From NCBI GenBank assembly GCA_015228935.1, contig JADGCO010000013.1:1-62231 (forward strand): DNA of 62,231 bases, given 5' to 3'. Below are positions 2,403 through 41,491 of this stretch, piece after piece. The position numbers and the translations under genes are program-made. The notes under the pieces were generated by a model. It was not told the origin of the DNA. It searched no databases and saw nothing but the letters and a program-made list of their open reading frames with translations. Origin of the DNA: Magnetococcales bacterium. GTDB lineage: Bacteria; Pseudomonadota; Magnetococcia; Magnetococcales; DC0425bin3. Numbering within the stretch: position 1 is the first letter of the stretch; each line of letters opens with the position of its first letter.

Positions 2403-2471
2403 GCTCCGCCCCAAACCCCGCCAAGAGGAAGGGCACAGCCCTTCCTCCTGGACCTCCATCCCAGTTTTTCA
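2403..2471 (+). repeat. Dispersed hairpin repeat, copy 1
   Basis: This copy runs GCTCCGCCCCAAACC, then a hairpin, then GGACCTCCATCCCAG and a T-rich run. The same block recurs in reverse at 28695-28768 and in shorter form at 41443-41491. The stem (GAGGAAGGGC/GCCCTTCCTC, loop ACA) extends further with one mismatch. It lies between the convergent cysQ-like gene and the small gene at 2490-2780, consistent with a bidirectional or forward transcription terminator. Confidence 0.8.
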
Positions 2472-2489
2472 TTTGTTTTTTTTACCGGT

Positions 2490-28565: not shown

Positions 28566-28694
28566 CGGCAACCCCCCTGTACAATGGATCGAAACCGTCT
28601 CGATATTTGAGTCTGCCTCCTGTTTAAGCAAATTCCTTGCCAATAGCCCTTTGAAAAAAAGATGTAACTATTCAGCTTCCCCAAAAAAAACGTT

Positions 28695-28768
28695 TGAAAA
28701 ACTGGGATGGAGGTCCAGGAGGAAGGGCTGTGCCCTTCCTCCTGGCGGGGTTTGGGGCGGAGCCCCAA
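28695..28768 (-). repeat. Dispersed hairpin repeat, copy 2
   Basis: Read on the minus strand this is the best copy. It opens TTGGGGCTCCGCCCC, then a perfect 14-base-pair stem (CCAGGAGGAAGGGC, loop ACA), then GGACCTCCATCCCAG and two T runs. It sits after the GlgX-MalQ stop (28834) on that gene's strand and so probably terminates its transcript. Copies at 2403-2471 and 41443-41491 are in the opposite orientation. Confidence 0.85.
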
Positions 28769-28833
28769 CAAAGTCTTTCTTATCAGACCCTTTTTTTGCA
28801 ATGGTTCTGAATAGATACAAAAAGATTTTCTTT

Positions 28834-35515: not shown

Positions 35516-35787
35516 CGTCGGCTTTGCACCATCCTGATTGGAGAATCGAAAGCAGGCATCGTGAGGCAGTGTCTCCAACAAATCCCGTGGATTCGGCGTC
35601 CCGGCTCCCTGCAACGCACTGGTTCCGTGTCCTGATTCTTTAGGATTCCCGAATTATTGCCCGGATTCAAGGCTTCTTGTGCATCCGCTCCGTTCCCGGG
35701 TCACAATATGTCAAAAAGGTTCAAAGTGCAGGGATGCAAGGCTGTCGAGCAGGATCGCCTCGACCTGGGATTCGGACAGGAATGACA

Positions 35788-37530
35788 TCAGAACCGTACT
35801 CCCAGCAAGGAGCCTTTCACATCTTCATCCGTCAGACGCAGCCGGATGAAATTCGACAAACTGAATCCTGGCGATAACTCCTTCTCTGGGGTCATGTCGC
35901 TATTGAGGGTACAGATGTATTGAAAACCATGCGCTTCCGATTCTTGAGCTGCCAATTCAAGAGCGCGGGCGCGTTGACGTTCATCAACGCCATCAAAAAT
36001 CATGCTGTCATGGATCAGAACCCGAGGAGAAACTGATTGTTCCGCCCACAGACGGGCAAGCATCAGGTCGTAGCAGAAGATCTTCATATTATCGACGCCG
36101 CCGCTTCCCGAACGTTCAATCTCAACATCAAACCTGAACCCATTGGATCCAACGTCAACGACCAGATTTCCGGGAGCCGAGTACAAATGCTGCGAATATT
36201 CGTTGAACAGACTGATGGCCCTTTCCCGGATGGCTCTTCGCTCATCAAGATCCCGTCTGGCTTTCTGATGCAAACGTTCTTGGGCAATCTTGGCCTCGCT
36301 CATCCCCGATTCAAAAGCCCGGTGATTTTCGATCATCGAGGTGACCGCGTTCAACTCGTTCACCATATCCAGATGGCGTCGTTGCAGCTGCGTATATGCC
36401 TCCAATGCGCCATGGGTTTTCAAGATCGCCATGAATGCGGCGTTTTCCTCGGTTTTTTTCCGAATCAGGGTTTCTCGATTTGATATGGCGCTTTTGATGC
36501 GTTCCACCTCTTCAGCCAGGAAGGCGTGCCGATTGGAAATGATCGTTGCGTGGAAGTGGCGGACATCCTCGATTCTGCGCAGCGCTGTCGTCGGCAGGGA
36601 TATGCCCGCATCCTGATAGATCCGATCCAGAGAATCTGTTGGTGGTGGTTGCTCCTCGGACAAATTCTGCTTGTACAGTTCGAGCATTTTTCGATCAACG
36701 ATGTTGGCATTCACCAGTGAATGAATTTCTCCGGTCAATCTGTTGGCGTCGGTCTGGATCTGCTCATATTGAGGATGAACTTTGAACGACTCCAGATCCG
36801 CTTGTTCTTTTGTGACCAGATCCTTCAATCGGACTTGACGAGTTTCCAAATCACCGAGCTTTCCAGCGAAGCCATCCAATACTCCTGCCTTGATGGCGGT
36901 TCTGATGGATTCCAGATCCCTGCTTCGTTCCTTGATTTTCAGAAATTCCGAGGCGTCTTCCCAAGCCAGTCCAAGGAGAAAGGCATTATTGATTTGGGCA
37001 TTCAACGCTGTTTGTTTTCGGAATGATTCAAATGGGGTGGAATAGGCATCTTTGCGACGACGAATGAAATAGGAAATCAGGCTGCGAAAGGATGGACCAC
37101 GCAGAGAATCACCATCAGTGTCACAAGGCAATCCGAACAGAAAATGCCCGAGCAGCAGAGTCCATTCCCTGGCGATAAAGGCTTCGACGCCTTTCCGAAC
37201 CGTCGGTTGGATCGGCCAGTTGGATGGAACATCGGCAACCAGGAAATTGGTCGGGTTCTCCACTCCCCTGGTCACGATCATCTGTTGTGAGCCAATGGCC
37301 AATTCCAGGGAGAATTCCCAATCGGGCAAATGTTCTCTGGGCAGAACTTCCTTGTCCGCATTGGCTCCAAGGCAGAAGTGAATGATCTCGATCAGAGTTG
37401 ATTTGCCAAGGCCGTTCCGGGAGTTCTTCCTGGTTTCTTCTTTTGTCCTATCGGCCAACACCACGTTGAACCCTTTGGTAAACTCAACGCTTCGAAACGA
37501 GGAGTGATTGGATGTGACTCTCTTGATCAT
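35788..37530 (-). CDS. DUF2326 ABC ATPase of an ABC three-component system
   Basis: The 580-residue product is SMC-like. It has an N-terminal P-loop (NGLGKST, 39-45), a long central coiled coil (about 215-440) and a C-terminal DUF2326-type Walker B, RVLIHDSMIFDGVDERQRA (near 511). Such ATPases are the motor of ABC-3C conflict systems, in which they are encoded with a small middle component and an effector-carrying protein. Here the gene overlaps the middle-component gene by 4 bases. The target is unknown; anti-phage or anti-plasmid defence is inferred from family association. Confidence 0.85.
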   Translation of the reverse strand: MIKRVTSNHSSFRSVEFTKGFNVVLADRTKEETRKNSRNGLGKSTLIEIIHFCLGANADKEVLPREHLPDWEFSLELAIGSQQMIVTRGVENPTNFLVADVPSNWPIQPTVRKGVEAFIAREWTLLLGHFLFGLPCDTDGDSLRGPSFRSLISYFIRRRKDAYSTPFESFRKQTALNAQINNAFLLGLAWEDASEFLKIKERSRDLESIRTAIKAGVLDGFAGKLGDLETRQVRLKDLVTKEQADLESFKVHPQYEQIQTDANRLTGEIHSLVNANIVDRKMLELYKQNLSEEQPPPTDSLDRIYQDAGISLPTTALRRIEDVRHFHATIISNRHAFLAEEVERIKSAISNRETLIRKKTEENAAFMAILKTHGALEAYTQLQRRHLDMVNELNAVTSMIENHRAFESGMSEAKIAQERLHQKARRDLDERRAIRERAISLFNEYSQHLYSAPGNLVVDVGSNGFRFDVEIERSGSGGVDNMKIFCYDLMLARLWAEQSVSPRVLIHDSMIFDGVDERQRARALELAAQESEAHGFQYICTLNSDMTPEKELSPGFSLSNFIRLRLTDEDVKGSLLGVRF

Positions 37531-37754
37531 GGCTTCCTCCGCACCAGCAGACCGTCCACCCAGTCAATCGCCTGAATGGCAAAGAGAAAGTCCAGTGCCA
37601 GGACAAAACGCCAATAAACACTTACCTCCGGATTGCCGCGCACCCGTTCCCACAGTGCCGTGACCGTTTGCGGAGACTGCATGTGCCGCAGCAGGGTGGC
37701 CCCGGCTCCCAGAAGAGAGTGTCGCAGGTCAACATGCTTGGTGGGGAGAATCAT
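37527..37754 (-). CDS. ABC-3C middle component 6 (MC6)-like small protein
   Basis: The 75-residue all-helical product begins ILPTKHVDLRHSLLGAGATLL and ends with LDFLFAIQAIDWVDGLL. It matches the short MC6-type middle components that bridge the effector and the ATPase in ABC-3C systems. It overlaps both neighbours by 4 bases, upstream HNH gene and downstream ATPase gene. The assignment rests on this pattern and on context. Confidence 0.8.
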   Translation of the reverse strand: MILPTKHVDLRHSLLGAGATLLRHMQSPQTVTALWERVRGNPEVSVYWRFVLALDFLFAIQAIDWVDGLLVRRKP

Positions 37755-38512
37755 TTCTCGAACACCTCGCAGCTTTCAAACAAATACACAAGAACAGCCA
37801 GTCCTGCCGCCCGTCGTTTAAAAGCCATGTCGCCGCCACTGGCAAACTCCAGCAAGGCTTCAAACAGGGCGTCATCGTCCAGGTTCTGCGCCTGGAAGCC
37901 TTGATAGGCCGTCAGGAATCCAGACTTGAGACGTTCGGGAAAATCCGGGTCGAAGGTGGACATGTTCTGTAAATAACCAGACACCTCCTGACTCCGGACC
38001 ATACCCATGGTGATCAACTGTCCGACATTGCTGGTCAGCCGATTCTTGGCCATCTTCTCCCGAGGAGCGGTGATCGTGAAATCGTCCGTTGGGGTGCTGG
38101 GTGGAGAGGCAATAGCTTTGGCAACAACCTCCAGTTCCGGGAATCCGACGCTGGGCATGGCCGCCGCCAATGACTTTTTGACCCACCGTTCATGATCCGC
38201 CTTGATGGTTCTGAGCCTGTCTACGGTATAAGTGTTGAACTGTGCATCCACTTGGGCGTGGCAAGCCGGGCATAACAGGATCGAATTTTCGTAGGTATCC
38301 AACTGGTCTCGAGGAAAGCCGGGATCTCCCCGGGGACCGTCATCACTGTGGCCGACGATATGGGATCTTTCACCGATCTGCTTGGTGGGATCCGCATCTG
38401 TCGCCTCCAACACCAATTCCCGCCGACAGTCAGCAAACGCGCACCGGTTGCCGGAACGACCATAGAGCTTTTTGATTTCTGCCGGTGGTAGTTCTTTCCT
38501 TTGCCTATTCAT
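37751..38512 (-). CDS. HNH-domain effector protein of the ABC three-component system
   Basis: The 253-residue product has an N-terminal HNH-like domain with a likely zinc set: Cys24 and Cys29 (CAFADC), His51 and His55 (SHIVGH), Asn76, Cys81 and Cys84-His85 (CPACH). The C-terminal part (about 150-253) is helical and is taken as the ABC-3C interaction domain. DNA cleavage by the HNH is inferred; the histidine and asparagine expected for catalysis are visible. The gene overlaps the MNT gene before it and MC6 after it by 4 bases each. Confidence 0.75.
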   Translation of the reverse strand: MNRQRKELPPAEIKKLYGRSGNRCAFADCRRELVLEATDADPTKQIGERSHIVGHSDDGPRGDPGFPRDQLDTYENSILLCPACHAQVDAQFNTYTVDRLRTIKADHERWVKKSLAAAMPSVGFPELEVVAKAIASPPSTPTDDFTITAPREKMAKNRLTSNVGQLITMGMVRSQEVSGYLQNMSTFDPDFPERLKSGFLTAYQGFQAQNLDDDALFEALLEFASGGDMAFKRRAAGLAVLVYLFESCEVFEK

Positions 38513-38883
38513 CGTGCCGACTCCACCGCTTTTTCGGCGTCGCGAACCCGGATAAGGATATGCTGATCCGAGGCCTTTCCGTTTCCCTCCTGCACCACCA
38601 TATACTTTTCTTCAATATTGCGATGGAAACTTGCGGGCAGGTCATCCCAGACCAACACATCCGCCGGGAATGGAAGGTTGCTTTCGTCCAGGGCTTCCTT
38701 GAGTTCCAAGACCAGGGAACGTTGGTCAGGCGAGGTGAAGACCACCAGATCCAGATCGGAGTAGGTCCGAGCAGTTCCCTTCACACGGGAACCATAGACC
38801 CATAGCGTCACGCCGGGCAGAAAACGGCGTAACAGCGACTGTAACGTCGTCATTTGCTCTGGCTTGATGTCCAGGCCGGTCAT
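38509..38883 (-). CDS. MNT-type nucleotidyltransferase (HI0073-like)
   Basis: The 124-residue product has the GSX10DXD motif GSRVKGTARTYSDLDLV (Gly31-Ser32, Asp43, Asp45) and a third acidic position in PADVLVWDD. It is a minimal nucleotidyltransferase of the HI0073 kind, paired with the HI0074-like gene before it. Its start ATG (38883) overlaps the upstream stop by 4 bases, and its stop overlaps the HNH gene start by 4. An in-frame ATG lies two codons upstream. Confidence 0.85.
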   Translation of the reverse strand: MTGLDIKPEQMTTLQSLLRRFLPGVTLWVYGSRVKGTARTYSDLDLVVFTSPDQRSLVLELKEALDESNLPFPADVLVWDDLPASFHRNIEEKYMVVQEGNGKASDQHILIRVRDAEKAVESAR

Positions 38884-41390: not shown

Positions 41391-41442
41391 CAATCCCGGA
41401 CGGACTGCATCCAAACCCTGCGCCGTAACAGTTCGGAATAAA

Positions 41443-41491
41443 GGGAGGAAGGGCACCGCCCTTCCTCCCGGACCTCTTGTCCCAGTCTTGC
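41443..41491 (+). repeat. Dispersed hairpin repeat, copy 3
   Basis: This shorter copy has GGGAGGAAGGGC, loop ACC, GCCCTTCCTCCC, then GGACCTCTTGTCCCAG and a T-rich tail. The stem is a perfect 12 pairs. Compared with copy 2 an A-T pair has become G-C on both sides, a compensatory change. It lies between convergent glgC and the NusG-II gene, consistent with a terminator. Confidence 0.8.

Follow-up and report, generated by a model that had tools for sequence, protein, structure and literature searches.

What kind of element is the G+C-rich hairpin that recurs downstream of genes on this Magnetococcales contig, and does it act on the transcripts of those genes or belong to mobile DNA? A preliminary description had reported three copies within the window (the whole stretch of 62,231 nucleotides analyzed here) and had implied that they mark RNA 3' ends. 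Below, the repeat is followed from its three sites in the window to its copies in related genomes, and each reading is weighed where the evidence on it is given.

The repeat at three sites in the window

All three copies were found at the positions first reported or within a few bases of them. At these sites, the described stem (GGAGGAAGGGC/GCCCTTCCTCC) was confirmed, as was the GGACCTC...CCCAG tail with the T that comes after it. Copy 1 (2403–2483, plus strand) is a standalone core with a partly degraded upstream hairpin (H1), the main hairpin (H2), the tail and a T-rich end, and it has no TIRs. Copy 2 is oriented on the minus strand. Copy 3 (41441–41491, plus strand) is a degraded standalone core in which H2 is retained, H1 is absent and the tail has diverged to ACCTCTTGTCCCAG. 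The gene calls place copies 1 and 3 in convergent gaps, in agreement with the claim that two copies are so located, and copy 2 between two minus-strand genes. The compensatory base pair also holds, as stem position 3/29 is G-C in copy 3 and A-T in copies 1 and 2. Overlooked in the earlier account were a second hairpin (GGGGCTCCGCCCC) upstream of the main one, the larger element that surrounds copy 2 and the fact that the tail mirrors the stem. A short segment, GGATCGACACYGATCCCGG, is also repeated in the window at 2200–2385, downstream of a gene ending at 2229, and one of its copies (2365–2380) scores as a terminator-like hairpin.

The core is carried by two types of MITE

Where in the genome does the repeat reside? 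Copies were sampled from stretches of the window's own genome (G000; Magnetococcales, 4.7 Mb in 197 contigs, rated 100% complete), which gave 77 distinct copies, and of its relatives, which gave 38 (37 in the congener G003 and one in G046). In the sampled copies, the core runs in the order H1 (GGGGC-NNN-GCCCC), AAACCCCGCC, H2 (CCAGGAGGAAGGGC-NNN-GCCCTTCCTCCTGG), ACCTCCATCCCAG, TTTTTCATTCGTTTTTT. After each of the two hairpins come a linker A and a pyrimidine tail, the latter a mirror of the hairpin's own purine arm. In copy 2, H1 is found at 28750–28768 (minus strand), where both sequence and fold give (TT)GGGGC-TCC-GCCCC(AA).

At least two MITE types contain the core; their ends are unrelated to each other, and both have target duplications. 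Complete type II elements account for 21 of the 77 sampled G000 copies; they are about 156 bp long (mostly 154–159 bp) and end in the TIR GTAWCYATTCAGA. Another 12 copies lie in complete type I elements of about 162 bp with the TIR GAGGCTGTCYAWTAAC. The remaining copies are mixed (2), single-ended (18) or without either TIR (24). Copy 2 is held by a complete type II MITE of 155 bp (28664–28818, minus strand) with TIRs GTAACTATTCAGC (28664–28676) and GTATCTATTCAGA (28806–28818), an architecture that matches that of the 21 sampled type II copies. Identical 8-bp target-site duplications, AAAAAGAT, flank this element on the left (28656–28663) and on the right (28819–28826). Copy 2 therefore shows a hallmark of bacterial MITEs, a short non-coding element bounded by TIRs on either side; copies 1 and 3 do not.

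A target-site duplication, also characteristic of bacterial MITEs, accompanies both types (8 bp in type II and TNA at most ends in type I). For type II, 7–8 of the 8 positions match in 15 of the 21 sampled copies, compared with 3.3% in the permuted control. For type I, TNA is present at 10 of 12 and 11 of 12 ends, and the pair is identical in 7 of the 12 full copies. Because these target duplications are present, it can be concluded that the MITE copies have moved by transposition. MITEs of both types also occur without the core (type II at L155, 79 bp; type I at L156, 75 bp), and L154 and L016 are chimaeras that combine type I with type II. Type II-like elements of 147 bp in G003 have the left half in common and carry different hairpin units. 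In genome G002, type I-like TIRs bound elements of 143–150 bp (L165–L170) with an unrelated palindromic interior and TNA-like flanks; these elements are another MITE family with type I-like ends.

Cores outside of MITEs have their own sequence signature. In G000, an AGTC variant is found in 9 of 13 standalone cores and in 3 of 57 MITE-borne cores (p=2e-6), and the two groups also differ in a GCA loop (p=0.004) and in a stem base G (p=0.003). Since these diagnostic bases differ from those of the MITE-borne cores, the standalone cores are not simply decayed MITEs and look like a separate lineage.

Which transposases could have served these elements? An intact IS was found at L140, in a genome of the same family and another genus, with GTAACCGTTCAGA at both ends and ATCGATCC duplicated beside it (an 8-bp duplication). 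It encodes one IS66 transposase of 530 aa (NF033517, 3.3e-62), and its matching ends point to a link between the type II MITEs and IS66. The type II elements share GTAA.. ends and the 8-bp target duplication with IS66-family MITEs but differ in their interior, which is the triplex-motif core common to another MITE type and not a remnant of an IS deletion. The type I elements have TIRs starting with GAG and a 3-bp TNA duplication, as do IS1031-like members of the IS5 group, and they may be likened to IS5-group (TNA-target) MITEs. No IS ending in GAGGCTGTC that could be their parent turned up in the genus, which sets them apart. Searches with PF13340 and PF01609 and among lone TIR sites likewise returned no parent IS for type I. 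No match to an IS66, DUF4096 or Y1 transposase was found in the G000 assembly, a MAG that breaks at repeats. Synteny between the window and L046, a contig from a Magnetococcales MAG, was searched for empty MITE sites, and collinearity was limited to 2.8 kb. This stretch (35729–38553 of the window and L046:4450–7272) is 90% identical and has flanks that are not collinear, which suggests a mobile or rearranged segment. The closest relative of one window protein comes from a Magnetococcales MAG.

The tail mirrors the stem and forms a triplex motif

In each unit, the tail that follows linker A complements the purine arm when the two are read in parallel (GGGG-CCCC, GGA-CCT, AGGG-TCCC, GGGGA-CCCCT, GGAGG-CCTCC), and in H2 this mirror relation spans the whole arm. 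The strand opposite the repeat reads tail(purine)-TCCA-arm(purine)-loop-arm(pyrimidine). Because the tail mirrors the purine arm of the stem, this strand is a class I intrastrand-triplex motif. Judged from its sequence, one DNA strand of the core could fold into a triple helix.

The motif was also recovered without reference to the repeat. The class I rule of ITxF calls for RH, R and Y blocks of 6–15 nt, loops of 1–6 nt and allowed triplets only. The whole window was scanned blind by the published rules, for the two purine classes on either strand and with perfect stems of at least 7 nt. Only copies 1 and 2 were returned, and one further A+T-rich site appeared at 6 nt. At copy 2 (28704–28743, plus strand), the motif is GGGATGGAGGT-CC-AGGAGGAAGGG-CTGTG-CCCTTCCTCCT, with 11-nt stems, loops of 2 and 5 nt and eleven allowed purine-motif triplets. 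The motif at copy 1 (2425–2462, minus strand) has perfect stems of 9 nt. Copy 3 does not conform to the class I rule and gave no perfect motif of at least 6 nt in the blind scan. In 12 dinucleotide shuffles of the window, no motif of at least 8 nt was found. A perfect stem of at least 9 nt is kept in 61 of 72 sampled G000 copies and in 32 of 38 copies sampled from relatives.

Has this layout been maintained over time? Genome-wide, stem position 6/26 is A-T in 55 copies, G-C in 14 and broken in 1 of 70. When the tail is included, the triple at stem position 6 is A-T.T in 89 cases, G-C.C in 15 and other in 3. Over 19 arm types, the tail agrees with the arm at 73 of 91 letters, a score equalled in 1 of 20,000 permutations that use related units and are not fully independent. 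A direct-repeat/antiparallel model of the tail was rejected, as it gave 55 of 91 compared with 73 of 91 for the mirror model. Elsewhere in the order, CCAGGA-stem hairpins have an ACCT tail in 36 of 42 cases (16 of 22 distinct), counts that are lower bounds because identical G039 strings were entered once each. GGGG stems with a CCCC tail amount to 114 units. Such covariation between stem and tail speaks, as comparative evidence, for maintenance of all three blocks of the layout and not of the hairpin alone. The triple changes may stem from few events, or from replacement of whole units by recombination. The earlier claim that structure rather than sequence is kept stands in part: changes occur on both sides of the stem and most copies are paired, but the independent events are few and 16 of 70 copies, copy 1 included, have an A.C mismatch at stem position 4/28.

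These limits bear on a second reading, in which the core is the neutral interior of a MITE, an ordinary palindrome with a mirror tail that is a chance inheritance and has no structural role. MITE interiors are usually neutral, and the independent two- or three-way changes are few. The rule that the tail follows the arm is violated by the CCAAGA subfamily (22 of 70 G000 copies, including copy 1), where position 4 changed and the tail did not follow, but the mirror rule holds in arms that differ in sequence and length, and in different families of the order. The same core is moreover shared by two MITE types and by standalone copies that form a lineage with diagnostic bases of its own, and a neutral interior is regarded here as improbable.

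The repeat as an unlikely signal for transcript ends

Could the repeat be kept for ending or protecting transcripts, as an intrinsic (Rho-independent) terminator or as a stabilizer of mRNA 3' ends? It is sited downstream of genes and more often in convergent than in divergent gaps (15:5 and 10:2, from approximate gene calls), but scarcity in divergent gaps would also result from avoidance of insertion into promoters. The same approximate gene calls show the repeat co-directional with genes in G000 (26:10), and this bias is reversed in G003 (1:7). A strong RNA hairpin is predicted on the plus strand (z -2.6 to -5.3) and the core has a T-rich end. What directly follows the stem, however, is a mirror tail of 13–15 nt and not a U-run. 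The G+C stem followed by a T-run that is expected of an intrinsic terminator is absent, and in copy 3 too the stem is followed by the tail and not by T. The GGACCTC..CCCAG tail was considered as a terminator tract and ruled out, as its letters mirror the stem's purine arm. It also covaries with the stem, which a terminator would not need. No RNA family reached the gathering score in an Rfam search of the window. In the related PIT motif, terminator activity was not found in earlier work (cited in PMC4666352). With no terminator called inside the repeat at copies 1 or 2 by the terminator scan, and with opposite orientations in two species, the RNA 3'-end or terminator element implied by the preliminary description was not borne out, and this role is considered unlikely.

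Copy number and distribution

An absence of further copies had been named as an outcome that would speak against the repeat, and the genome gave the opposite result. An oriented stem and tail pattern matches G000 at 135 forward and 134 reverse sites, compared with 0 for the reversed-pattern control, and a copy is found at the end of many G000 contigs. The match totals in G003 are identical (135/134) with different listed positions, which reflects either chance or an artefact of the counting. Apart from G000 and G003, the 48 genomes of the order that were searched gave a single occurrence of the pattern. In G003, the units also form tandem arrays with a period of 83–111 bp.

Related hairpins are more widespread. 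Several other Magnetococcales genomes contain hairpin units ending in GGACCC by the hundred, with a peak of 618 matches in G024, and a small number is present in one further family of the phylum; controls were near zero in both cases. GGACCC-type hairpins are joined into chains by ACCCCRCC. In G022 (L184–L187) and G024 (L180–L181), GGACCC-type units were also seen as inverted pairs about 150–390 bp apart, chained with other hairpins such as CCGGGGACCGTGACGGTCCCCGGACCCCTG.

Mobilization of the repeat by a RAYT (Y1 transposase) as a REP/BIME element with a GGTCCAGGAGG hairpin would suit a high-copy extragenic palindrome with a conserved flank on one side and solo and tandem copies, in an order where Y1_Tnp genes are frequent (33 of 48 genomes), but it is very improbable: no cognate RAYT flanked by the repeat was found in G000 or G003, a PF01797 search gave no Y1_Tnp in G000 despite about 135 copies and its 100% completeness rating, the sole Y1_Tnp gene of G003 has another hairpin (GCGGGCGTCCCGCCCGC) beside it, and more than 40% of the sampled G000 copies belong to complete elements that have TIRs of other kinds as well as target duplications. 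The RAYT-like Y1_Tnp region of G003 (L223:1547–3056; G003:C36), which has GCGGGCGTCCCGCCCGC hairpins on its flanks, with GGGAGC before them, is a candidate REP-RAYT pair unrelated to the triplex repeat.

Relation to known triplex repeats

Intrastrand-triplex repeats are reported to be abundant in bacteria and have been linked to genome instability (PMC4666352). The PIT/BoxC/TM-ECO repeats (Hoyne et al., 2000, cited in Holder et al., 2015; PMC4666352) are reported to form stable triplexes in vitro, but in vivo footprinting of the E. coli motif did not support stable triplexes, and rearrangement is more frequent at PIT/BoxC/TM loci (PMC4666352). The repeat described here shares with them a short, G+C-rich and intergenic nature, a high copy number and a patchy occurrence among close relatives. 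It also shares the hairpin with a third, mirrored purine domain, the short loops and the allowed triplets G.GC, A.AT and T.AT. Its sequence is unrelated to the consensus 5'-CCCTCNCCCN3-6GGGNGAGGGN3GGGNGAGGG. Whereas PIT/BoxC/TM-ECO repeats have the class II order, the window repeat has neither the TM-ECO/BoxC consensus nor that order and is of class I, with the third strand 5'. It is further set apart by its place within MITEs, often with a second hairpin unit before it; the PIT/BoxC/TM-ECO repeats were reported not to be associated with transposons or transposases (Holder et al., 2015; PMC4666352). The literature searched, with most subscription journals outside it, held no paper linking intrastrand-triplex repeats to MITEs and none on intrastrand-triplex repeats in Magnetococcales. 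The repeat belongs to a known kind, the PIT/TM triplex repeats, and its novelty is its occurrence as MITE cargo.

Outlook on the biology of the core

What, then, does the repeat do for the genome that carries it? It is probably a passenger of mobile DNA, a MITE core with an intrastrand-triplex motif, and not a gene-control signal. On this reading, the tail and the target duplications are explained, and so is the way in which the copies are distributed. The spread of the core can be traced step by step through the two MITE types, their core-less sisters, the chimaeras and the separate standalone lineage. Transposases acting in trans would have moved the MITE copies, with the IS66 family serving type II. 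The core would fold in single-stranded DNA during replication, and the folded core would lead to stalling, template switching and recombination between cores. Such events would explain how the tandem arrays and the chimaeric MITEs arose and how the core passed from one MITE family to another.

A bolder and more doubtful extension is that the triplex core is itself a selfish unit, passing between unrelated MITE families and tandem arrays by way of stalling and template switching. If this extension is true, the selfish core would gain the transposases of several IS families as vehicles, and its behavior would explain the high and patchy copy numbers of triplex-motif repeats in bacteria.
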